Source of the DNA: Verrucosispora sp. WMMD573
Lineage (GTDB): Bacteria; Actinomycetota; Actinomycetes; Mycobacteriales; Micromonosporaceae
Assembly (NCBI RefSeq): GCF_027497175.1
Contig: NZ_CP114901.1
Coordinates: forward strand, 5,084,001 to 5,148,000
DNA length: 64,000 bases
Reading direction: 5' to 3'
Shown: positions 44,087-55,659 of the stretch, piece by piece
Layout of the letters: the number at the start of each line of letters is the position of its first letter
Position numbering within the stretch: the first letter of the stretch is position 1
Notes under the pieces: model-generated
The model's database searches: none
What the model was told of the DNA's origin: nothing
The model's input: the letters and a program-made list of their open reading frames with translations, nothing else
Program-made: the position numbers and the translations under genes

Positions 44087-44509
44087 TCACCGGAGCGCGA
44101 CGCGTTCGGCCACCGGCTCCAGGTACACCGGAAGGTGGTCGCCGGCCTGGGCGACGAACATGGCCACCTCGTACGCCATGTCGCCGACCTCCGCGTTGCC
44201 GTCGACACCGACGGCGAGGACGGCGCCGTTGCCGGTGGTGGCGTGGAACAGGAACGCCCGGGACATCTGCACCACCACCTGGTGCAGTTCACCGTCCCCG
44301 CAGACCCTGGCGGCGGCCAGGCCCAGCGCCTGAAGACCGCAGACCATGCTGGACAGTTGACCGGCGAGCTCGTCGTCGATGCCCCGTGAGGCGCCCAGCA
44401 GGAGGCCGTCCGGGGAGAGCACCACCGCGAACTGGGCACCCGGCACACGGTCGACGATGTTGTCGAGCGCGCGGCCGAGGTTGTCGGCGGTGGCCACCGC
44501 AGTAGTCAT
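44087..44509 (-). CDS. Roadblock/LC7 domain protein (MglB-like)
   Basis: 140 residues covering one Roadblock/LC7 fold (GRALDNIVDRVPGAQFAVVLSPDGLLLGASRGI, then AEVGDMAYEVAMFVAQAGDHLPV). In actinobacteria such proteins belong to conservon-like sets that act on small Ras-like GTPases. No GTPase partner is next to it here, but a large LuxR-type ATPase gene starts the locus upstream, with only 49 bases between their coding regions. The ATG is preceded by GAGAGGA. Cotranscription with the LuxR gene is plausible. Confidence 0.88.
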   Translation of the reverse strand: MTTAVATADNLGRALDNIVDRVPGAQFAVVLSPDGLLLGASRGIDDELAGQLSSMVCGLQALGLAAARVCGDGELHQVVVQMSRAFLFHATTGNGAVLAVGVDGNAEVGDMAYEVAMFVAQAGDHLPVYLEPVAERVALR

Positions 44510-44558
44510 GGCAGATCCTCTCGTTGGCGGAACCGGCGGATGAGGGCCGGTCCGAGGC

Positions 44559-47087
44559 TCAGTTCGCGGCCCGTCGGGGCCACGGCTGTCCGTTCGTGGT
44601 GTACGACGGGTCAGCCAGAATGGTTCGAAGCAGGGCCAACAGGTCGGTGCGGTTGGCGCAGTTGAGCCGCGAGCGCATCCGTGCCACGTGGTGCTCCACA
44701 GTCTTGGCGGAGATGAACAACCGATCCCCGATCTCCCGATAGGTGAGACCGGCGACGACAAGTTCGGCCACTTCCCGCTCCCGGTCACTGAGCCGGTGTG
44801 AGACGGTGCCGGCCGCCGGCTTGCGGTCCTCGGCGGCGGACCGGCCCTGAAGCGCCCGTGCGCAGTCCAGCAACGCCGTCATCGCCCGCCGGTCGGCGGT
44901 GCGGATGGCGGCCTGCCCGGCCAGCCGGGCACCGTCCCAGCACAGGCCGGTGTCGTGCAGGCCCCGGGCGGCGGCCTCGACCCGGACCGGATCGACGGTG
45001 CCGCGCAACACCTCCAGCCAGCACTCGGCCGCGGCGGCCACCACGGCGGCGTACCGGCTGTGACCGGCGGCGGCGAGCAGGGCGCTGACGTGTTCGTCGG
45101 CGGCGACCGGGTCGTCGGTGAGGATCGCCGCATGCAGTCCGCTCCAGTGCAGCGGCGTACGCCACAACGGCGGATCGCCCAGACGGCCGAGCAGTTCGTG
45201 GGCGGCCCGCAGGTAGGGCTGGAGGCGCCCCAGGTCACCCAGGCGGGCACCGGCGATGGCCAGCTCGCCCAGCGGCAGCAGGGTGAACAGGTCGACCGGG
45301 TGGCGGACCACCGCCTCCAGCGCGGGCACCCAGCCGCGCTGCAACGCGCCGAGGTCGCTGGCACGCCGGGCGATGCCCATGGTCAACCCGGCGGCGAAGA
45401 GCAGGTCGCGGGATTCCAGCTCGGCGTCGGCGGTCGCCTCGGTGAGTTGCTCACCGGCGGCGGCGATCCGCCCCCGCGCCATCAGGATCCAGGCACGCAG
45501 CAGCCGGTGCCGGCCGGTCAGCAGCGGCCCGCCGATGCCGCTGGCCAGAGCCCGGTCGAGGACCCGCTCGGCGATGTCCAGCTCACCACAGTGCACGGCG
45601 GTCAGCGCCGCCAGCGCGGCGGGGCTGTCCGGCAGCAGCACCGCCCGCCCGTCGGGTTCCAGCAGAGCCGCCGCCTGCACCAGGGTGGACAGGGCCGCCG
45701 ACGGGGTGCCGTGGACGCTTTCGCGTACCCCGTCGGCCATCAGCCGGGCGGCACTGGCCTGCAGGGTCGGCGGGCTGTCCGCGACGGGTTCGGGATGCTC
45801 ACTGGGACGGGCGGTGGCGAGCGCGCCGACCGCCGCGAAGGCGTGCGCGCTGACTCCGCCGGACCAGTGGTACAGCTCCACGCTGCGATCGGTCTGTCCA
45901 CGGTGGGCCAGTGCAGTGGCGGCGACGAGGGCGGCCTCCGCACGGGCCTCCGGCGGCGCGGTGGTGAGCAGCCGGTCGGCCAGTCGCAGCGCGAGATCGA
46001 GGTCCCCGGCGAGGGCGGCGGCGACCGCTTGCCGGACTCCGGTGGGTCGGCCGACGGTGCCCGCAGCGGCGAACAGTCGCGCCGCCAACGCCGGTTCGCC
46101 ACCGAGGGCCTCTTCCGCAGCCGCCTCCAGGGTGGCGGCCGGGCAGTCACCGGCGACACCGGCCGCAAGCAGCGAGCGCACCAGCGGCAGCACCGGTGCG
46201 CCGCGGCTGAGCGCGAGGTCGCTGAGCAGGTGCCAGACGGCGGTGCGGTCGGCGGCCGGGCTGAGCGCGGTCACCGCCCGCCGGACCAGCGGGGAGGGTC
46301 GGCCGTCGGCGCCCAGCAGCCCGGCGGCGCGGGCTTCGGCGACGAGGTCGTCGATCTCCGCCGGTTCGCGGTCAAGCAGTGGGCGTAGCGCCTCGGCCGG
46401 CAGCGGAACGCCAGCGGCCAACGCGATCAGCAGCCGGCGTACGTCGGCGGACAGGTGGTCCAGGTCGGGACCGAGGTGCAGCACCACCTGGCGGGGCGGT
46501 TCGGTCGGTACGCCGGTCGCCGCCTCCTGCTCGCGTAGCCCGTCGACCAGCCATCCCACGTGCCGAGGCACCCCGCCGGTCTGGCTGTGCACGAAGTCGA
46601 CCAGGTCCGGGCGGCGGCCGAGGCGGGGCACGGCGGCGAGGTACGCGGCGGTGCGCGCCCGGGTGAACGGGGTGAGCAGTAGCTGGCGTCCCTCCCGGCG
46701 CAGCGTGTCGGTCAGCTCGATCAGGGCCCCCGGTCGGGGCCACGGCCGGTAGCTGATCGCGACACGGTGCCGACGGTCGGAGACCAGCCGCCGCAGCGTA
46801 CGCAGCCGGGCCTCGTCGAGCAGGTGCGCGTCGTCGATCAGCAGCACGGTCTCGGGGACGTACGCGTCCTCGGTGGCCGGAACCTCGGTGTGGACGGTGA
46901 CGCCGGACCGGGTGTACCGGGCGGCCAGTTCCTGGAGGTAGGTGGTGCGGCCGTGGCCACCCGGTCCGGTCACCCCGAGAATGAGCGGCGCGGCCGGGTC
47001 GGCGGTGATCGTGCCGAGCAGGTCGGTCGGTTCGGCGTCGAGGACCAGCGGGCTGTCCGCCACGGCGCTCGTCATCATGGCGGTCAT
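44559..47087 (-). CDS. Large LuxR-family ATPase regulator (LAL-like)
   Basis: 842 residues. An N-terminal ATPase-like domain has a Walker A variant GPGGHGRT at about 41-48, where the Lys is Arg47, and Walker B VLLIDDAHLL at 81-90. A long Ala/Leu-rich helical (TPR-like) region spans about 250-760. The C-terminal LuxR domain is LSDREREVAELVVAGLTYRE and ISAKTVEHHVARMRSRL. It overlaps the Hsp70-like gene by four bases and lies one gene from the IniB/IniA/IniC-like genes, so it is the likely regulator of that locus. Loss of the Lys may weaken ATP hydrolysis. Confidence 0.88.
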   Translation of the reverse strand: MTAMMTSAVADSPLVLDAEPTDLLGTITADPAAPLILGVTGPGGHGRTTYLQELAARYTRSGVTVHTEVPATEDAYVPETVLLIDDAHLLDEARLRTLRRLVSDRRHRVAISYRPWPRPGALIELTDTLRREGRQLLLTPFTRARTAAYLAAVPRLGRRPDLVDFVHSQTGGVPRHVGWLVDGLREQEAATGVPTEPPRQVVLHLGPDLDHLSADVRRLLIALAAGVPLPAEALRPLLDREPAEIDDLVAEARAAGLLGADGRPSPLVRRAVTALSPAADRTAVWHLLSDLALSRGAPVLPLVRSLLAAGVAGDCPAATLEAAAEEALGGEPALAARLFAAAGTVGRPTGVRQAVAAALAGDLDLALRLADRLLTTAPPEARAEAALVAATALAHRGQTDRSVELYHWSGGVSAHAFAAVGALATARPSEHPEPVADSPPTLQASAARLMADGVRESVHGTPSAALSTLVQAAALLEPDGRAVLLPDSPAALAALTAVHCGELDIAERVLDRALASGIGGPLLTGRHRLLRAWILMARGRIAAAGEQLTEATADAELESRDLLFAAGLTMGIARRASDLGALQRGWVPALEAVVRHPVDLFTLLPLGELAIAGARLGDLGRLQPYLRAAHELLGRLGDPPLWRTPLHWSGLHAAILTDDPVAADEHVSALLAAAGHSRYAAVVAAAAECWLEVLRGTVDPVRVEAAARGLHDTGLCWDGARLAGQAAIRTADRRAMTALLDCARALQGRSAAEDRKPAAGTVSHRLSDREREVAELVVAGLTYREIGDRLFISAKTVEHHVARMRSRLNCANRTDLLALLRTILADPSYTTNGQPWPRRAAN

Positions 47088-48376
47088 CCTTCGTGTTCCC
47101 GGCTGCGGGCCAGCTTCCGGCGAGATCGCTTCGGCAGGTCGAGGGGTGAATAGCGGATCGGCGGGCGGGGCGGTGGCTCGTCGCGGGGGACCCGGTCGTC
47201 GGCCGGGTCCACGGGTGGGCCGGCGGTGCGCGCCATCGACGCGACGGACGCGGTGGCGACGGTCCCGGGGGCTCCGACGGTCGCGGGTGGACCAACCGGT
47301 GGCATCGGGCCGGACGGCAGCGGGCGTGGGGACAGGATCCGGGTGCCGGCTGCGGCGGCACCGGCCGCCGCCGTGTTCTGTGGATCGGGTGGGGTCTCGA
47401 CCGGAAAACCGGCCGTGGCGAGCAGCTCGGCGACCAGCGGCACCCGGCTGGCGCCGCCGGCCAGCAGCACGCCGTCGAGCTGCGCGGGTGCCAGGTCGGC
47501 GGCGTGGACGGCCTGCGCCAGCAGCTCCACTGTGGCCTGAACCGTCGGTCGGATCAGTTCCTCGAACTCCAGCCTGGTCACCGGCACCCGGACGGAGCCG
47601 GTCGGCAGCGACACCGCCACGTCGGTCTGCGACCCGACGGTCAGCTCCCGTTTGGCCCGTTCACACTCGACGGGCAGCTGACGCAGGGCACCACGGGCAC
47701 CGGGGCCGGCGTCGGCCAACTCCCGGGCGAGCACGGAGCGAACGTGCACGGCCAGCGCCTCGTCGAAGTCGACGCCGCCGAGCCGGGTGAGCGTCGCGGG
47801 GACGCCGACGGTCTCGTACCGGTCCCGGGCGTTACGCCGGACCAGTGCGGTCTCGAAGGTGCCGCCGCCCAGCGCATACACGGCGGCGACTCCACCGGCG
47901 AAGCCCCGGGCGGCGTGCCCCTCCGCCACGGTGACCGTGCGGGGCAACAGCGTCACCGCACCCAGGCCGTAGTCCCACAACGCGTTGTGCAGCAGGTCGC
48001 AGCGGTACCGCCCCCAGGAGGCGGGGTGGCTGAGCACAACCAGCTCGGCCGGCGCGCCGCGGGCGCCGTGGACCTGATCGACCACGTGCGCGGCGAGCAA
48101 CGCGACAAGGGTCTCCGGCCGGTAGCGCTCACCGGCGAGCAGCAGCGGCACGTCGTCGCCGACCCGGTTCAGCACCCCCCGGGCGGTACGCTCTGATTCG
48201 TCACCCTCACCGAGCGCGAACGTGCCGTCGGTGGACAGCAGCAGCGTCGACGGCAGCGGCCCCGGCCCGGAGTGCAGGGCGACCGGCTCCGGGTGACCCC
48301 AGTGCCCGTCCCGGTGCCGGGCGACCGCGGCGACGGTGCTGGTGTTGCCGATGTCGATCCCGAGCACGTAGGCCAT
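47084..48376 (-). CDS. Hsp70-like protein with degenerate ATPase site and no substrate-binding domain
   Basis: 430 residues. The actin-like ATPase fold of Hsp70 is clear: phosphate-1 GIDIGNTSTVAAV (6-18), phosphate-2 VYALGGGTFETAL (166-178) and adenosine LLAGGASRVP (304-313). Key residues differ from DnaK. The Asp of DLGGGT is Ala168, the FD Asp is Glu175, and the catalytic Lys region reads GEGDESE. After about residue 350 only a Pro-rich tail and a basic end (RSRRKLARSREHEG) remain, so the peptide-binding domain is missing. It is coupled to the LuxR gene and divergent from the IniB-like gene. Confidence 0.88.
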   Translation of the reverse strand: MAYVLGIDIGNTSTVAAVARHRDGHWGHPEPVALHSGPGPLPSTLLLSTDGTFALGEGDESERTARGVLNRVGDDVPLLLAGERYRPETLVALLAAHVVDQVHGARGAPAELVVLSHPASWGRYRCDLLHNALWDYGLGAVTLLPRTVTVAEGHAARGFAGGVAAVYALGGGTFETALVRRNARDRYETVGVPATLTRLGGVDFDEALAVHVRSVLARELADAGPGARGALRQLPVECERAKRELTVGSQTDVAVSLPTGSVRVPVTRLEFEELIRPTVQATVELLAQAVHAADLAPAQLDGVLLAGGASRVPLVAELLATAGFPVETPPDPQNTAAAGAAAAGTRILSPRPLPSGPMPPVGPPATVGAPGTVATASVASMARTAGPPVDPADDRVPRDEPPPRPPIRYSPLDLPKRSRRKLARSREHEG

Positions 48377-48672
48377 CTGCTTTCTTCCTTGACCGCGTCG
48401 GCCATGGGGTGGGCCGGACAGGCCCGCCGTTGCGGGCCGCCCCGGGGGACCCCGTGGGCTCCTACGTTCGTACCAGAGATCACTCCGGCATCAGGAGCCC
48501 CAACTTCGGCGGGCGTCGGTCCCCCACTCCCCCTAACGTACGAGAGCCCGGATGCCCCTAATCGAACGGGTCGGATTGCGGGATCGTCCCCGATGCCCGG
48601 CCCCGGACACCGCCCGTAGCGTCATCGGCGATCACCGGTCGTTGACGTTTCGCCGAGGAGAGAACCCCCAAC
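48377..48672. promoter_or_regulatory. Divergent control region between Hsp70-like and IniB-like genes
   Basis: A 296-base gap that must hold two promoters. CCCCTAA occurs at 48530 and 48555, 25 bases apart in the same orientation, and could be a regulator site. A TAGCGT at 48617 could be a -10 for the rightward gene but has no good -35. No ORF is supported. Confidence 0.4.
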
Positions 48673-49566
48673 ATGGACCAGACCCTGCACGACTTCGTGC
48701 TCAACCTGCTGACCGACGCGGACGCCCGGTCGGCGTTCGACCTCGACCCGGAGGGCGCGCTGCGGGCCGCCGGCCTCGGTGACATCACGGCCGCCGACGT
48801 CCAGGACGTGGTGCCGCTGGTGGTGGACTACGCGCCGGTGCAGGGACTCACCCCGGTCGCCCCGGTGACCGGGCAGCTCGGCCTCGACCCGCTGGTCGGT
48901 GACGCCACCGACGCGATCAGCCAGTTGCAGAGCGTGGCGCAGCAGATCAGCGTCGGCAGCTCCCACTCCGGAGTGGACGTCAAGGCCGGGGTGCTCGGCA
49001 CCATCGCCGTCGACCCGTCGACGGTGACCGCGGGGGCGAGCGTCTTCCCGGGAGTCGGCGTCGGCGTGACCCCCACCGGGGTGGGCGTGGACCTGTCCGG
49101 CGTACACGATGTGGCCAACACCCTCGACGCGGACGTGACGTCACCGATCGATCGCACCACGGAGCCGGCGCTCGGTGACGTCACCGGCGCGGTGGGTGAC
49201 CCCATGTCCGCGGTGAACGGCACCACCTCCGGGCTGCTGGACACCACGTCCGGTCTGCTTCCCGGCACCACCAGTCAGGTCGGCGATCTGGTCGGTTCGC
49301 TCGGTGTCGGCGACACCCTGGGCGGGCTCGGCCTGACCGGCGACGCGGGCGGCGTGGTGCCGTCGTTGGATCTCGATTCCACTGTGGGTGGTGTGACGGG
49401 GCAGGTAGATGGCCTGTTGGGCGGCGTCACCGGGACCGTCACCGGCGGCACGAAGGGGTTGTTGGACGGCGGGGTCAGTGGTTCGGTGAGCGGGGACACG
49501 GCAACCCACGGCGAGGCCTCCACCTCGACCGGCGGGGTGCTGGGCCTCACCGACGGTCTGCTCTGA
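48673..49566 (+). CDS. IniB N-terminal-domain protein
   Basis: 297 residues. The N-terminal 50 residues (TLHDFVLNLLTDADARSAFD, then GDITAADVQDVVPLVVDY) are the IniB N-terminal domain. The rest is a Gly/Ser/Thr/Val-rich repeat-like region (LGDTLGGLGLTGDAGG, TSGLLPGTTSQVGDLVGSLG) with no signal peptide or helix. In mycobacteria iniB heads the isoniazid-induced iniBAC operon, and the same order is seen here. GAGGAGAG precedes the ATG. A terminator-like hairpin separates it from the dynamin gene. Confidence 0.88.
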   Translation: MDQTLHDFVLNLLTDADARSAFDLDPEGALRAAGLGDITAADVQDVVPLVVDYAPVQGLTPVAPVTGQLGLDPLVGDATDAISQLQSVAQQISVGSSHSGVDVKAGVLGTIAVDPSTVTAGASVFPGVGVGVTPTGVGVDLSGVHDVANTLDADVTSPIDRTTEPALGDVTGAVGDPMSAVNGTTSGLLDTTSGLLPGTTSQVGDLVGSLGVGDTLGGLGLTGDAGGVVPSLDLDSTVGGVTGQVDGLLGGVTGTVTGGTKGLLDGGVSGSVSGDTATHGEASTSTGGVLGLTDGLL

Positions 49567-49576
49567 CACCCGTCAT

Positions 49577-49614
49577 CGGGCGGGGTCGGCACCATCCGGC
49601 GCCGACCCCGCCCG
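49577..49614 (+). terminator. Hairpin between IniB-like and IniA-like genes
   Basis: 14-base arms CGGGCGGGGTCGGC and GCCGACCCCGCCCG with a 10-base loop, followed by TTCTTC. It would reduce read-through so that more IniB-like protein than dynamin is made. Confidence 0.75.
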
Positions 49615-49659
49615 TTCTTCGCACTTGATAATTGAGCCGAATTCAGCACACTTGGTGCG

Positions 49660-51510
49660 GTGATGGCGGGAATCTGGCTCGACGCGCTCGACGACATCGC
49701 TCGCACGTGCCAGGAACACGGTCGGGGGGACCTGCTTCAGGCGGTCCGTCTCAAGCGCGCCCACCTGCTCGATCCGACGTTGACCGTGCTGGTGGTCGGC
49801 GAGCCGAACCAGGGCAAGAGTCAGCTGGTCAACGCGATCGTCAACGCACCGGTCTGCCCGGTCGGTGACGGGACCACGACCGTCCTGCCGACGGTGCTGC
49901 GGCACGCCGAGGTCGCCTCGGCGACGGTGGTGCAGACACCACTGACGAGGCCGGGAACGCCCCCGGCCGCCGATCCGCCGGCCGTGCAACGGACACCGGT
50001 GCCGACCGACAAGATCGCCGCCGGGGTCGGCGGCAGCACCGGCCGGCTGCCCGGCGGCGGCCCCGCGTACATCGAGATCGGTCTGCCCCGAGCGCTGCTC
50101 GGGGCAGGCGTGGTGCTTGTCGACATGCCGGGCGGCGGTGATGCCGCCGCCGTCGGCGCCGGCACCCCGGTCGCCGCCCTGGCCCGCGCGGACACCGTGC
50201 TGCTGGTCACCGATTCCACCCGGGACCTGTCGGTCAACGAGCTGAACATGCTGCTGCACCTCACCCGGTCACACTCCAATGTGGCCGTGGTGCAGACCAA
50301 GACGGATCTGGTGCCGGACTGGCGGGCCGTGGCCGACCGGAACCGGCGGCACCTGACCGACGCCGGGGTGCCGGCCCCCTTGATCCCGGTGTCCGCCGCG
50401 CTGCGCCTGCACGCCGCCGCCACCGACGACCACGCGCTCAACGCGGAGTCCGGCTTCCCGGCGCTGATCGCCCTGCTCCGGCGACACCTGGCGGCCAAGC
50501 CCGACACTCTGGCCCGGGCAGCCGTCGTGCTGACCGCGCGCACCGTGGTGGAGCAGCTCGCCGCGCCACTGCGGGCGGAACTGACCGACCAGCGCTCGGC
50601 CGAGGAGTCGGCGCCGATGGCCCGGCTGCACGCGGCCCAACGGGAGGTCGACGAGCTGCGGCGGTGCGCCACCCGATGGCAGAACATGTTGACCGACGAG
50701 ATGGCCGATCTGATCTCCGACATCGAGCACGACCTGCGCGACCGCACCCGGCAGATTCTGCGGATGGTCGACGAGGCGTTCGAGACCGCCGACCCGCTGG
50801 TGGCGTGGGACGCCGTCGCGCAGTGGCTGGAGGAGAGCCTCGTCGAGGCGGCGGCGGCGAACCGGCGATGGCTGGTGCAGCGGTGCGACTGGATCGCCCG
50901 GCGGGTCGCCGAGTCGTTCGCCCGCTACGGCCACGGGTCGCTGCCACCGTGGCCGCTGACCGCCTCGGCGGAGTACGGCGCACCGGTGCCGGAGCTGGAA
51001 CGTCCCAACGTCGACCGGTTCACCGTCGGCCAGAAGATGTTCACCGGTATGAAGGGCTCCTACGGTGGGCTGCTGATGTTCGGGCTGGCGCTCACCCTGG
51101 CCGGCATGCCGATGATCAACCCGATCTCGATCGGCGCCGGTGCCCTGTTCGGCGGCAAGAGCATCCGCGACGAGGGCAAACAGTTGCTGCGCCGCCGGCA
51201 GGCCACGGTCAAGGCTGCGGTGCAACGGCACGTCGACGACTTCTTCATCCAGGTCAGCAAGGACAGCCGGGACGCGGCCCGACGGGCACAGCGGGTGCTG
51301 CGGGATCATTTCGCCGCCCTTACCGACGAGTTGCAGACCGCCATCATCGAGTCGTTGCGCAGCGCCAAGGAGGCCGCCGACACCGACGCGGCGGCGCGGG
51401 AGCGACGCCAGCGCGAGATCCAGCAGCGGATGATCCGGCTGGCCGAGCTGTACGAGCAGGCGCAGCAGGTGACCGCCGCCCGCCCGGCGCCACTGGCACC
51501 GCTGGCATGA
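49660..51510 (+). CDS. Dynamin-like GTPase, IniA-like
   Basis: 616 residues. GTPase motifs are G1 GEPNQGKS (47-54), G2 Thr in GTTTVLPTV, G3 LVDMPGGGD and G4 TKTD. Long helices of the dynamin neck and trunk surround a hydrophobic hairpin at about 455-490 (GGLLMFGLALTLAGMPMINP), which matches the membrane-binding loop of mycobacterial IniA. A C-terminal coiled coil (RERRQREIQQRMIRLAELYE) ends it. IniA remodels membranes in mycobacteria. The GTG and the ATG one codon later are equally possible starts. It overlaps the next gene by four bases. Confidence 0.9.
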   Translation: MMAGIWLDALDDIARTCQEHGRGDLLQAVRLKRAHLLDPTLTVLVVGEPNQGKSQLVNAIVNAPVCPVGDGTTTVLPTVLRHAEVASATVVQTPLTRPGTPPAADPPAVQRTPVPTDKIAAGVGGSTGRLPGGGPAYIEIGLPRALLGAGVVLVDMPGGGDAAAVGAGTPVAALARADTVLLVTDSTRDLSVNELNMLLHLTRSHSNVAVVQTKTDLVPDWRAVADRNRRHLTDAGVPAPLIPVSAALRLHAAATDDHALNAESGFPALIALLRRHLAAKPDTLARAAVVLTARTVVEQLAAPLRAELTDQRSAEESAPMARLHAAQREVDELRRCATRWQNMLTDEMADLISDIEHDLRDRTRQILRMVDEAFETADPLVAWDAVAQWLEESLVEAAAANRRWLVQRCDWIARRVAESFARYGHGSLPPWPLTASAEYGAPVPELERPNVDRFTVGQKMFTGMKGSYGGLLMFGLALTLAGMPMINPISIGAGALFGGKSIRDEGKQLLRRRQATVKAAVQRHVDDFFIQVSKDSRDAARRAQRVLRDHFAALTDELQTAIIESLRSAKEAADTDAAARERRQREIQQRMIRLAELYEQAQQVTAARPAPLAPLA

Positions 51511-52964
51511 CCGGCGGGCGGCTCGACGCGGAAGTCCGGGACCTGCTGCACCGGGCGCTGCACGGTTACCGTGACAACCCCCGGGCCACCGAGCTGCTGC
51601 GGCACCAGTTGGCCCGCTACGACCAGCCGCTGCGGGTCGCCGTCGTCGGCGGGTGGCGCAGCGGCAAGTCGACGCTGCTCAACGCCCTGATGGGCGAGGA
51701 GGTGGCCCCGGTCGACGGAAGCGCCTTCACCTGGTACCAGGACGGGCCGCAGCCGGATGCCACCGGATACTCCACGAGTCACCCGCCGCAGCGGCTGGCG
51801 GTGCTGCGCTCCGGCACCGGGATGCGGGTCGACCTCACCGGCTGGCGCGCCGGGGAACTGCGCGACATCGTGGTGCGGTGGCCGGCACGCTCGCTGCGAC
51901 AGGTGACGTTGCTCGACACCCCGGCGCTCGGCGCGGCCGAGGAGCAGGCGGCGGATCCGGTGCTGGCGCGGGTGCTGCGGGAGGCCGACGCGCTGCTGTA
52001 CCTGACCCGCGACGCCCGGGGGGCCGACCTGCGGATCCTGGGGGCGACCCGGGGAGACGTCGTCGGGCAGGCCGCGCCGGTCCACACGATCATGGTGCTG
52101 GCGCGGGTGGACGAATCCGGCGGCGGTCGGGTCGACGCGCTGCTCAGCGCTCGTCAGCTCGCCCGACGGGCGCTCCGGGACCCGCACGTGGACGCGCTGT
52201 GCGTGACGGTGGTGCCGTGCAGCGGGCTGCTCGGTCTGGCCGGCCGGGTGCTCGGCGAGACCGAGTTCGCCGCGCTGGCGGCCCTGGCCCGGGTGCCGCG
52301 CGCCGAGCTTGAGCCGTACCTCCTCTCCGCCGAGCGGTTCGCCCGCGGCGAGCCACCGGCCGGGTTGGAGGCGACCACCCGTGGTGCGTTGCTGGAGCGG
52401 CTCGGCGTGGTCGGGATCCGCCTGGCGACCACTCTCGTGCGCACCGGCTGCGACAATCGGGTGGCTCTGGCCGCCGAACTGGTCCGCCGCAGCGGTCTCG
52501 CTGAGCTACGCGAGTCCCTCAACCGCCTCTTCGTCGACCGCCGGCACGTGCTCAAGGCACGGTCGGCGCTGACGGCGTTGGAGGCGGTGCTGCGGGACGA
52601 ACCGGGTCCGGCCACCGGCGACCTGCTCGCCGCGCTGGAGCAGCTGCTCGCCGGCGCGCACGAGTTCGCCGAGTCGCGGCTGCTGGCCGCGCTGCGCGAC
52701 GGCCGCCTCGGGTTCGACGCCGAGCTGGCCGCCGAGGCGCGGCGGCTGGTCGGTGGGGACGGTGACGAACCGGCCGCCCGGCTGGGCATCGCGCCCGACG
52801 CGACACTGGCGTGGCTGTGGGAGACCGCCGCCGAGGCGCGGTGGCGGTGGCGGGAACATGCCGAGGATCCCGGACTCGCCTTGTCGCAGCGGCGGGGCGC
52901 GCAGGTGGTGGCCCGCAGCTGCGAGGGTCTGCTCGCCGACCTGGCCGCCGCCCACGCCCGCTAG
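51507..52964 (+). CDS. Dynamin-like GTPase, IniC-like
   Basis: 485 residues. G1 is GGWRSGKS (48-55), G3 LLDTPALG, and a G4-like position reads ARVDES rather than NKxD. The helical trunk follows, without the hydrophobic hairpin of its partner. It is shorter than IniA, as IniC is in mycobacteria. Coupled translation suggests the two GTPases form a hetero-assembly, as for paired bacterial dynamins. Confidence 0.87.
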   Translation: MTGGRLDAEVRDLLHRALHGYRDNPRATELLRHQLARYDQPLRVAVVGGWRSGKSTLLNALMGEEVAPVDGSAFTWYQDGPQPDATGYSTSHPPQRLAVLRSGTGMRVDLTGWRAGELRDIVVRWPARSLRQVTLLDTPALGAAEEQAADPVLARVLREADALLYLTRDARGADLRILGATRGDVVGQAAPVHTIMVLARVDESGGGRVDALLSARQLARRALRDPHVDALCVTVVPCSGLLGLAGRVLGETEFAALAALARVPRAELEPYLLSAERFARGEPPAGLEATTRGALLERLGVVGIRLATTLVRTGCDNRVALAAELVRRSGLAELRESLNRLFVDRRHVLKARSALTALEAVLRDEPGPATGDLLAALEQLLAGAHEFAESRLLAALRDGRLGFDAELAAEARRLVGGDGDEPAARLGIAPDATLAWLWETAAEARWRWREHAEDPGLALSQRRGAQVVARSCEGLLADLAAAHAR

Positions 52965-54344: not shown

Positions 54345-54932
54345 GTGTCAGTAGGGGTGATCCCACCGGAGGTAGCCCTGGACGACGAGCAGTTCGTCAC
54401 CCGCGCGCAGGCAGGTGACCTGGCGGCGTACGAGTCCCTGGTCGCTCGGCACACCGCGACCGCGTACCGGACCGCGGTGCTGCTCGGCGCGGGCTCCGAC
54501 GCCGAGGACGTCATCCAGGAGGCGTTCGTAAAGGGGTACCGCAAGCTCGACCGTTACCGCGGCGAGTCGTCGTTTCGTTCCTGGCTGCTGGCGATCGTGG
54601 CGAACGAGACGCGCAACCTGCACCGCACCCGGGAACGACGCAACGGCCTGCTGCTGCGTGCGGCGCGGGTGACGGCGGGCTCGGAGATCGTCGAGGACGA
54701 CGCCGTCGGCGCGGTCCTCGCCGGGGAGCGTCGGGCCGCCCTCCTGCGGGCGCTGCGGGCGCTGCCGTCGCGGGACCGGGAGGTGATCGTCTGCCGCTTT
54801 CTGCTGGACCTGAGCGAGGACGAGACGGTCACCATGCTGGGCTGGCCGCGGGGCACGGTGAAGTCGCGTACCTCGCGGGCGCTTGTCAAACTGCGCGGCC
54901 TGCTCGCCGTCGAGGAGGTCAGCCGTGGATAA
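54345..54932 (+). CDS. ECF-family RNA polymerase sigma factor
   Basis: 195 residues. Sigma-2 is AYRTAVLLGAGSDAEDVIQEAFVKGYRKLDRY followed by FRSWLLAIVANETRN. Sigma-4 is LRALPSRDREVIVCRFLLDLSEDETVTMLGWPRGTVKSRTSRAL. No extension is present. The GTG start is uncertain: another GTG lies 12 bases on, and GGAGG is inside the proposed coding start. It overlaps the next gene by eight bases, so the two form a sigma/anti-sigma type pair. Confidence 0.9.
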   Translation: MSVGVIPPEVALDDEQFVTRAQAGDLAAYESLVARHTATAYRTAVLLGAGSDAEDVIQEAFVKGYRKLDRYRGESSFRSWLLAIVANETRNLHRTRERRNGLLLRAARVTAGSEIVEDDAVGAVLAGERRAALLRALRALPSRDREVIVCRFLLDLSEDETVTMLGWPRGTVKSRTSRALVKLRGLLAVEEVSRG

Positions 54933-55659
54933 CCTGGAGCGGGAGCTGCGCGACCTGTCCGGTTGGTTGGCGACCCCGGAGCCACCGGACGTCACCGCCC
55001 GGGTCCGGGCCCGGCTGACCGCCGCACCACCTTCTCGCCGCGTCGCACGCCGACGCCGCTGGCGGTACGCGCTGGTGGGAGTGCTCGCCGCGCTGCTGGT
55101 GGCGACGCTGCCGTCGGGACGGGCCGCGCTCGCCGACGCGGTGGCGGGCCTGCTGCGCTTCGCCGGCATCACCATCAGCACCTCGCCCGAGCTTGCGCCC
55201 CCGACCGGCGTCCCGTCGCCACCGCCGGGGCAGCGCGCCGCCACCCTCGACGAGGCGCGCCGCCTGGTGCGCTTTCCGATCCGGACGCCGAGCGTGCTGG
55301 GCCCGCCCGAGCAGGCGCTGCTGGCCGATCCGGACGCCGCCGGCCGTTACCGGGTGGCGAGCCTGCTCTACCGGGCCGGCACGCTACGCCTGGACACCTT
55401 CGACGGCCGCCTCGATCCGGTGTTCTTCAAGCAGACCGGCGGGTCGGACGCCGAGTGGACGCAGGTGGGCACGGCCGAGGCGATCTGGCTCGGCAGCCCG
55501 CACCCGGTCTCCTACCTGGACCGCGACGGGGTCGTCCGCCAGTCGAGCGCCCGCCTCGCCGCCGCGACCCTGATCTGGACGGACTCCGGGGTGACGTATC
55601 GGTTGGAAGGCGAACTGACCATGGCCGAGGCGGTCGCCATCGCCACCACCCTGTCGTGA
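54925..55659 (+). CDS. Membrane protein, putative anti-sigma factor
   Basis: 244 residues. A cytoplasmic part of about 48 residues (NLERELRDLSGWLA) precedes one helix (YALVGVLAALLVATL) and an outer domain with a VSYLDRDGVVRQSS strand region. The GTG start inside the sigma gene follows GAGGAGG. Position and topology fit an anti-sigma regulator, but the HxxxCxxC zinc motif of the common class is absent. The outer domain is of the DUF4367-like type, which is an inference. Confidence 0.75.
   Translation: MDNLERELRDLSGWLATPEPPDVTARVRARLTAAPPSRRVARRRRWRYALVGVLAALLVATLPSGRAALADAVAGLLRFAGITISTSPELAPPTGVPSPPPGQRAATLDEARRLVRFPIRTPSVLGPPEQALLADPDAAGRYRVASLLYRAGTLRLDTFDGRLDPVFFKQTGGSDAEWTQVGTAEAIWLGSPHPVSYLDRDGVVRQSSARLAAATLIWTDSGVTYRLEGELTMAEAVAIATTLS

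Follow-up and report, generated by a model that had tools for sequence, protein, structure and literature searches.

Six genes lie together at positions 44087-52964 of the window, the whole 64,000-nucleotide stretch of DNA that was analysed, in the order Roadblock, IniR-like, Hsp70-like, IniB-like, IniA-like and IniC-like (Table 1). As the first-pass annotation had described, this group carries four-base overlaps on both arms. The overlap of the IniA-like and IniC-like genes (51507-51510) has a possible counterpart in 64 of 69 related loci, and, judged from the sequences, overlaps at the Hsp70/IniR and IniA/IniC junctions appear to occur more than chance would give. On one strand, a gene with an IniB N-terminal domain is followed by dynamins A and C, which is the iniBAC-type order, and the locus is a soil-bacterium relative of the mycobacterial drug-stress cluster iniBAC. 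iniBAC is an established readout for the action of cell-wall drugs, and vesicle release has been linked to its dynamins. At the sequence level, the content of the locus is an IniR-like regulator, an IniB-domain protein, an IniA/IniC pair, a divergent promoter that carries CCCCTAA boxes in direct repeat and a conserved Hsp70-like protein that consists of a nucleotide-binding domain (NBD) only. Comparisons were made with a 296-genome class set, in which 27 genomes have IniR (the window locus and 26 other class loci), with 80 further named loci, 74 of them assessable for the Hsp70-like gene, and with 17 control genomes. The gene order is kept across families.

Table 1 Genes and control elements of the iniBAC-type locus, in positions of the window
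Feature	Position	Strand	Basis or remark
Roadblock/LC7 protein	44087..44509	-	Pfam Robl_LC7, E=1.2e-14
IniR-like signal-transduction ATPase/LuxR-type regulator, 842 aa	44559..47087	-	NCBIfam NF038181 and GerE
Four-base overlap, hsp70-like stop/iniR-like start	47084..47087	-	Possible in 60/74 related loci
Hsp70-like protein, 430 aa, nucleotide-binding domain only and Pro-rich basic tail	47084..48376	-	PF00012; DnaK 2v7y alignment; hydropathy
Divergent intergenic region between hsp70-iniR and iniBAC arms	48377..48672	.	
Conserved element TTCGTACCA (+ strand letters)	48467..48475	-	Possible promoter part of hsp70-iniR arm
Predicted IniR box 1, CCCCTAA	48530..48536	+	
Predicted IniR box 2, CCCCTAA	48555..48561	+	Same orientation as box 1
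CCCCGATG block	48588..48595	+	29 bp (start to start) upstream of -10-like hexamer
TAGCGT, -10-like hexamer	48617..48622	+	Putative iniB promoter
IniB-like protein: IniB N-terminal domain, then low-complexity Gly/Thr/Val/Asp-rich remainder	48673..49566	+	NF038175
IniA-like dynamin	49660..51510	+	Dynamin_N, E=2.8e-12; GTG start, next codon ATG
IniC-like dynamin	51507..52964	+	Dynamin_N, E=3.4e-8; purpose-built IniC profile

The products of the iniBAC arm are readily placed. The IniB-like protein matches the IniB_NTERM model NF038175 (E=2.9e-20, 71.9 bits, cut-off 40), and the IniA-like dynamin is similar over its full length to M. smegmatis IniA (6j72; E=3.8e-97, residues 4-607), a protein to which the available part of PMC6715688 ascribes membrane fission activity. 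On the opposite arm, residues 22-825 of the regulator match the IniR model NF038181 at full length (E=1.1e-137). The score of 460.7 bits falls below the equivalog cut-off of 750 bits, and the protein is therefore named an IniR-like homologue. It has a GerE domain (E=5.2e-16), and the lysine of its Walker A motif is replaced by arginine (GPGGHGRT). Like an IniR gene, its gene lies beside iniBAC; IniR and IniA-proper (at least 691 bits) are found in the identical 27 of the 296 class genomes. The regulator was initially read as LAL-like and as foreign to the iniBAC description. The gene and its GerE domain are real, but the generic LAL label gives way to an IniR-like identity, and the second claim is not supported: in both M. 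marinum and M. tuberculosis, IniR has been shown to activate iniBAC (PMC5760070). When overexpressed, IniR of either species switches on a reporter in M. smegmatis, a host that carries a dnaK-like gene (PMC5760070).

The Roadblock gene, which is separated from the IniR-like gene by a gap of ~50 bp, had been counted as a sixth fixed partner, a proposal that was rejected. No Roadblock match is found in the 26 other class loci, and the matches in 30 of the 80 named loci are confined to Micromonospora, Verrucosispora, Plantactinospora, Phytohabitans and Dactylosporangium, all of which we take to be Micromonosporaceae. In six of these 30 loci the gene lies <=63 bp from IniR; in the other 24 it is about 2-3.4 kb beyond IniR. 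Conservon (cvn) cassettes consist of kinase-like, Roadblock, DUF742 and GTPase genes. The placement of Roadblock beside IniR recalls such a cassette, as does the copy in L064, the one locus tested in this respect, which is preceded by a NIT-HATPase kinase and followed by DUF742. In contrast, the window has Roadblock alone of the cassette, adjoined by a DUF2267 gene on the opposite strand, and does not qualify as a conservon. The gene is probably an orphan of a neighbouring kinase/Roadblock/DUF742 cassette that lies outside the ini module.

The Hsp70-like protein aligns with DnaK (2v7y) over residues 1-349 (E=2.1e-22), and its PF00012 match (E=1.2e-23) covers profile positions 104-377 of 599 alone. 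The C-terminal substrate-binding domain is thus absent, which confirms the original description of an Hsp70-fold protein without a peptide-binding domain. All nine relatives examined with Pfam share the NBD-only architecture, whereas a true DnaK is matched through the end of the profile. DnaK also forms a separate branch in the tree (100/100). An origin of the Hsp70-like protein as a displaced DnaK is ruled out by this architecture and by the tree. The ATPase residues K70, E171, D194 and D201 of DnaK (E. coli numbering) are replaced by L, R, A and E, and the catalytic Lys70 is retained in 8 of 112 aligned Hsp70-like rows; relatives of the L045 or L049 type have a canonical site. G73, D74, W121, R268, G307 and P313 are invariant over 62 rows. 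Hydropathy reveals no membrane helix in the window protein; relatives of many lineages have one.

The gene for this protein is present in the IniR locus of all 27 IniR-bearing class genomes, adjoining IniR in 20 and lying elsewhere within the locus in 7. It directly adjoins IniR in 74/74 assessable named loci, where it is one intact frame in 73, and it is present in 2/2 loci of one genome from outside the class. The proposal that the Hsp70-like protein is a fixed partner is therefore borne out, its synteny reaching beyond close relatives, through many families and into a non-class genome. In the one named locus with a broken frame (L127), iniA and iniC are fragmented as well. Locus L036 has just a partial Hsp70-like copy, and a longer copy ends contig C45 (L147). 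Elsewhere, the L114 protein is reduced to 253 aa and a second copy in L053 is split, and several mycobacterial-type loci have duplicated the gene rather than lost it. Dynamin loci without IniR have an Hsp70-like gene nearby in 16 of 29 cases versus 0 of 20 control windows, with 4 of the 16 positives lying 9-13 kb away in windows placed to include them. These 29 were counted from 31 fetched; L147 (G107) and L172 (G118), with ini loci divided between contigs, were dropped. Pfam shows L147:1780-3675 to be a true DnaK; this gene and a DnaK-type match cut at the stretch end (L172:10861-12000) were kept apart from the Hsp70-like set. Because 13 of the 29 IniR-less loci, several of them contig ends, have no Hsp70-like gene in the fetched stretch and 14 solo copies lie far from any dynamin match, the link to dynamins is not exclusive. 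From its genomic distribution, the Hsp70-like protein is a conserved, little-studied companion of these bacterial membrane-cutting dynamins.

The region between the two arms contains several conserved, oriented elements. TTCGTACCA occurs in 53 of 93 intergenic regions in the iniB sense and in none in the opposite sense. CCCCGATG occurs in 72 of the 93, again with none in the opposite sense, and is followed by the hexamer 28 or 29 bp downstream in 61 of the 72. Oriented CCCCTAA boxes, a motif first spotted by eye in the same regions later used for the counts, are present in 22 of 24 non-redundant divergent regions versus 1.3 in shuffles, with none antisense; they are directed at iniB, not at the hsp70-iniR arm. 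The box pair is found once in the window's own 6.5-Mb genome and in 47 of the 80 named loci, and 11 of the 26 class loci are without a pair; the IniR-bearing genomes G148 and G187 have no pair of the N1-20 pattern. Neither the stretches of the 29 IniR-less dynamin loci nor the 20 control windows contain a pair; L147, an ini locus, gave the single match in that control list. Pairs also stand upstream of a second hsp70-like gene in L050 and L052-L054 and before unlinked iniB-like genes in four genomes, all from genomes taken as mycobacterial. No box accompanies the second hsp70-like copies near iniC (L055, L061), nor, in the fetched stretches, the hsp70-like genes at a distance of 20-25 kb (L221) or without linkage to the ini locus (L195-L197). 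Across eight IniR-bearing genomes of mycobacterial type there are 30 pair matches, compared with 14 for a reversed-pattern control. Five are off-locus, four of them preceding IniB-domain genes and one (G290) within a long open frame. IniR-less G095 has one pair match and two reversed-control matches, and IniR-less G066 has none. The conserved boxes are consistent with binding of IniR to the iniBAC promoter, and the CCCCTAA repeats are predicted to be the IniR operator; such operator-like boxes lend support to the earlier suggestion of a control region shared between the arms. An HpoR site was ruled out as the identity of the box, as the HpoR motif differs and is palindromic (PMC13413693).

Taken as a whole, the locus is read here, with modest confidence, as an iniBAC/IniR-type envelope-stress module in which the Hsp70-like protein, rather than being a chaperone, serves the dynamin machinery as a nucleotide switch or as a scaffold. 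IniR, a MalT-like ATPase, would bind the asymmetric boxes and turn on iniBAC; IniA and IniC would sever or reshape membrane under stress, and IniB would be their partner in the envelope. The probably ancestral Hsp70-like protein would be membrane-anchored, its tail or propeller lying outside the cytoplasm, and would report the state of the envelope to the dynamins or position them. In the lineage of the window, the membrane helix appears to have been lost together with the residues for hydrolysis. Because of this loss, its protein would act as a soluble adaptor, ATP-binding or nucleotide-blind, between the translation-coupled IniR and the dynamins. More tentatively, actinobacterial dynamin pairs may commonly be coupled to a dedicated non-chaperone Hsp70-fold NBD, in many cases anchored in the membrane and bearing a tail or beta-propeller on the outside. 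This domain would sense the envelope and control dynamin assembly. IniR would have been added in one branch, where CCCCTAA repeats would place dynamins, IniB proteins and Hsp70-like genes under its control. This broader idea would be a bacterial parallel to Hsp70 acting on membrane coats.

Alternatively, the Hsp70-like protein could be a co-regulator that keeps the MalT-like ATPase inactive or membrane-held until envelope stress arises, with no role in dynamin function. MalK, MalY and Aes hold MalT in this manner, and the Hsp70-like gene is immediately beside IniR in 74/74 assessable named loci and 20/27 class loci, with a four-base overlap possible in 60/74 and the predicted operator preceding the extra copy in L050 and L052-L054. 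We regard this as rather unlikely, since the gene also accompanies 16 of 29 dynamin pairs that have no IniR in the stretch and stands apart from IniR in 7/27 class loci. In addition, overexpressed IniR of M. marinum or M. tuberculosis induces a reporter, although in a host, M. smegmatis, with its own dnaK-like gene (PMC5760070).

It is improbable that the Hsp70-like gene is a hitchhiker in decay, the remnant of a once-active Hsp70 relative that now does little and persists because of the structure of the operon. The scarcity of Lys70 (8/112 rows), the four substitutions in the window protein, the shortened L114 protein and the split L053 copy would fit such decay. They are opposed by the single open frame beside IniR in 73/74 loci (in the exception, iniA and iniC are broken too), the six residues invariant in 62 rows and the duplication of the gene in several mycobacterial-type loci. 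That the module is an Eleos (Leo)-type system of anti-phage dynamins is hardly credible. PADLOC models do match, LeoBC the IniA-like protein (7.1e-11) and LeoA the IniC-like protein (1.8e-12), but LeoA matches best over a stretch of 34 residues at the P-loop of the GTPase (IniC-like residues 38-71) and the LeoBC match is weak (238-582), so neither protein matches its PADLOC model at full length. Solved IniA 6j72, in contrast, matches the IniA-like protein along its length (3.8e-97), and the ini gene order is conserved across families.

The favoured reading, an envelope-stress module with an Hsp70-like switch or scaffold, can be set beside several known systems. Twelve class-sample loci with IniR above the NCBI cut-off, which we take to be Mycobacterium, resemble the window in their CCCCTAR boxes and in having the hsp70-like gene (12/12, beside iniR in 11). 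Micromonospora is not known to have mycolic acids. A mycolate envelope is thus no prerequisite for the module, which challenges trehalose(-mycolate) recycling as a general signal. DnaK/Hsp70 chaperones share the actin-like nucleotide-binding domain and the adenosine motif GGxxRxP with the Hsp70-like family. In this family, unlike in the chaperones, the substrate-binding domain is lacking, and its place is often taken by a membrane helix with a tail or by a beta-propeller; the catalytic residues are mostly lost as well, and the family forms a separate branch. The boxes at which MalT acts are, like those of the window, asymmetric, stand as direct repeats and lie in a control region that is divergent. 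MalT of E. coli (STAND/LAL), the comparison drawn in PMC5760070, resembles IniR as an ATPase with a helical sensor and a LuxR DNA-binding domain, and differs from the window regulator in box sequence and target genes.

Mycobacterial iniBAC-IniR (PMC5760070) has the same IniR-type ATPase/LuxR regulator, iniB*/iniB-domain gene(s) and IniA/IniC dynamin pair. The window differs in having one iniB-domain gene instead of two, a soluble and shorter Hsp70-like protein and an IniR below the NCBI cut-off. Apart from one sentence in PMC5760070, which places a dnaK-like gene next to iniR in M. smegmatis, the iniBAC papers examined name no Hsp70-like member. This gene is mentioned for M. smegmatis alone among the species compared there, so in M. 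tuberculosis and M. marinum the system may not need it. The first-pass annotation held both the regulator and the Hsp70-like protein to be new to iniBAC; the regulator part of that novelty falls with the published IniR, and the Hsp70-like partner is the real finding of the locus, bar that sentence. If this protein and the box are true parts of the system, a signal path from envelope to dynamin would be directly testable in Micromonospora, a harmless host. A further parallel is the cyanobacterial 'chaperone group' of dynamins, in which, according to PMC5827413, a conserved DnaK-domain protein is encoded next to a bacterial dynamin. The group belongs to another phylum; section 7 of that paper mentions neither IniR nor IniB, and 'IniA' and 'operon' each have 0 occurrences in its text. 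A link between DnaK-domain and dynamin activities was already proposed there, and the present finding joins that separate report of DnaK-domain genes beside dynamins.

The six-gene arrangement of the first-pass annotation is borne out by the gene coordinates and strands of the window (G000:C1:5084001-5148000, in a genome of 6.5 Mb), and both four-base overlaps, one on each arm, are genuine. Past iniC, at 54345-55659, translations judged by eye indicate a sigma-70-like (ECF) gene and then a membrane protein.

Features of the ini locus in the window
Feature	Position	Strand	Evidence
Roadblock	44087-44509	-	Robl_LC7 (family scan)
IniR-like regulator	44559-47087	-	GerE (family scan); NF038181
Hsp70-like	47084-48376	-	HSP70, profile positions 104-377 of 599 only
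Divergent region	296 bp, between Hsp70-like and IniB-like genes
IniB-like	48673-49566	+	IniB_NTERM above cut-off
IniA-like	49660-51510	+	Dynamin_N
IniC-like	51507-52964	+	Dynamin_N

The gene labeled LAL-like in the first pass does encode a regulator, but not a generic LAL protein. Residues 22-825 match NCBIfam NF038181, the isoniazid response ATPase/regulator IniR (E=1.1e-137; 460.7 bits, below the equivalog cut-off of 750 bits), and by this profile the protein is IniR-like. Among the matches listed in named genomes, the nearest IniR-like protein is that of Micromonospora andamanensis (91% identity). In the Walker A motif of the window protein an arginine replaces the lysine (GPGGHGRT), likewise in loci L062, L064, and L049; most aligned relatives covering that stretch retain the lysine. 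The suggestion that a coupled regulator falls outside the iniBAC description does not hold, as IniR is a published activator of iniBAC: the available sections of PMC5760070 (Boot et al. 2017) report ChIP-seq binding upstream of iniBAC, a regulon of iniBAC only, and activation of iniBAC by trehalose. ATP level is a proposed signal for IniR in the accessible part of PMC6104191.

Conserved synteny extends beyond close relatives. In the class sample of 296 genomes, a long IniR-like match is present in 27, exactly the genomes with IniA matches of at least 691 bits (the next scores 552 bits). All 27 fetched loci contain at least one copy of the Hsp70-like gene, which adjoins IniR in 20 and lies elsewhere within the locus in seven (L037-L039, L044, L048, L049, and L059). 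In L036, a partial copy adjoins IniR, and the dynamins and a longer copy are on a separate contig (L147). The gene also adjoins IniR in 74/80 named loci, the best 80 of at least 578 confirmed; the remaining six begin at IniR at a contig end. These loci come from genera that we assign to Micromonosporaceae and Pseudonocardiaceae, plus one record titled Rhodococcus. The locus in that record (L099, Rhodococcus rhodnii) resembles Kibdelosporangium loci L101 and L109, and the record is possibly mislabelled or mixed. An IniR match (E ≤ 1e-20) is present in 6 of 246 phylum-sample genomes, including one outside the class, in which both loci carry IniR, IniC, IniA, and the Hsp70-like gene. The Roadblock gene, in contrast, is not the fixed partner once proposed: it has no match in any of the other 26 class loci and was detected in 30/80 named loci (≤63 bp from IniR in 6, 2-3.4 kb off in 24). 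Downstream of IniR in L064 (12634-15468), it is flanked by a NIT-HATPase kinase and DUF742. Where a Roadblock gene adjoins IniR, as in the window, it is probably left over from a kinase/Roadblock/DUF742 cassette, of which all three genes persist in L064.

In agreement with the proposed absence of a peptide-binding domain, the HSP70 match of the window protein is partial. The best PF00012 stretch ends at profile positions 368-381 of 599 in 9/9 relatives tested; true DnaK (L147) is matched through position 599. Relative to DnaK 2v7y, the catalytic-site positions, which we take to be Lys70, Glu171, Asp194, and Asp201, are L, R, A, and E in the window protein. Of 112 rows (fragments and second copies counted), 8 retain the catalytic lysine. 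At the adenosine site, the glycine is conserved in 109 rows and the proline in 108. Simple hydropathy predicts a post-domain membrane helix in 30/35 class-sample rows, 9/29 rows of the mainly Pseudonocardiaceae set, and 6/44 Micromonosporaceae rows, and none in the window protein. A Thr/Pro-rich tail follows this helix in mycobacterial-type loci. Short paralogues downstream of IniR (L036:4407-5606, L040:12076-13176, and L042:12147-13265) retain just the initial portion of the nucleotide-binding domain, followed by a membrane helix and a tail rich in Pro and Thr. DnaK forms one side of a branch with 100/100 support in a tree of 90 rows. The ini label changes 6 times on this tree versus 29.4 in shuffles, and the ini-locus proteins fall into more than one clade.

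The 29 remaining IniA-like matches, all fetched, lie in stretches without IniR, though some of these genomes carry IniR elsewhere. A non-DnaK Hsp70-like gene is found in 16, at ≤2.5 kb from the dynamins in 12 and at 9-13 kb in four, in windows deliberately extended to take in known matches. Twenty control windows (20 kb each, round coordinates, 17 sampled genomes; unmatched to individual loci) contain no Hsp70-like gene, and 14 Hsp70-like copies in the tree have no dynamin match nearby. As judged from gene neighborhoods, the association with dynamins is wider than that with IniR. Hsp70-like proteins beside IniR-less dynamin pairs are often 690-870 aa (L154, L155, L160, and L166); some have C-terminal WD40 or PQQ propellers (L155, L154), and the domain scan named no C-terminal domain in L160 or L166. 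The L049 copy, from an ini locus, continues into a different beta-propeller. A true DnaK gene (L147:1780-3675) lies ~2.6 kb from iniC, and L172 has a DnaK-range match ~6 kb from iniC.

Because the Hsp70-like gene is retained in the absence of IniR and travels with the locus, its product would be placed on the dynamin side of the system. There, available sections of PMC6715688 describe GTP-dependent cutting of membrane tubes by M. smegmatis IniA, and those of a review (PMC11077946) a contribution of IniA/IniC to M. tuberculosis vesicle release. The main rival is a role as co-regulator of IniR, given how tightly the two genes are coupled in Micromonospora.

The divergent hsp70-iniB region could be extracted from 93 loci. 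CCCCTAR occurs in the iniB sense in 88 (at least two copies in 61) and in the opposite sense in 10; with approximate shuffles the values were 5.7 and, for at least two copies, 0.2. After clustering into 24 independent regions, the box is present in 22, at least twice in 15, antisense in 0, and absent from two; exact dinucleotide shuffles (n=200) gave means of 1.3 with a box and 0.01 with at least two (maxima 5 and 1). Since the motif was first noticed in the regions later counted, tests in other sequences matter. The complete 6.5-Mb genome contains a single instance of CCCCTAA-N(1-30)-CCCCTAA, located in the divergent region of the window. Across eight genomes of genus g2 that carry IniR, taken as Mycobacterium because their IniR exceeds the NCBI cut-off, 25/30 matches of the pair pattern are inside the ini locus, and the reversed control pattern gave 14. 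Four of the five off-locus matches precede unlinked genes with IniB N-domain scores of 60-62 bits. The exact paired box CCCCTAATCCCCTAA lies upstream of such genes at L215:3427, L216:3456, L217:3509, and L218:3531 (354-995 aa from stop to stop), which are likely extra members of an IniR regulon. The pair also precedes a second hsp70-like gene in L050 and L052-L054; additional hsp70-like copies close to iniC, in L055 and L061, lack a box, and IniR-bearing G148 and G187 have no such pair. The boxes are flanked by TTCGTACCA (hsp70 side) and CCCCGATG/TAGCGT (iniB side). Co-regulation of both arms is plausible, and the box orientation would favor iniB. Asymmetric direct-repeat boxes are expected of MalT-type regulators, and the predicted IniR boxes share this arrangement.

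No IniR-box motif was found in the available parts of PMC5760070 or PMC13413693. The open-licence papers searched, in their accessible parts, yielded no description of the CCCCTAA box of IniR loci, of the actinobacterial Hsp70-like family or its fixed place in these loci, or of its often membrane-anchored make-up with a nucleotide-binding domain only. The regulator and its hsp70-like neighbor are not wholly new because both are in PMC5760070, where, in the sections available, the hsp70-like (dnaK-like) neighbor of M. smegmatis iniR has a single sentence (section 10) and is left undeveloped. Together with PMC5827413, in its available part, this means that a dynamin-Hsp70 neighborhood is already published for cyanobacteria and, in that sentence, M. 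smegmatis. In the cyanobacterial dynamin "chaperone group" (PMC5827413, section 7), DnaK-domain proteins are encoded downstream and a linked activity with the dynamins is suggested; the actinobacterial loci share its dynamin-Hsp70 gene neighborhood.
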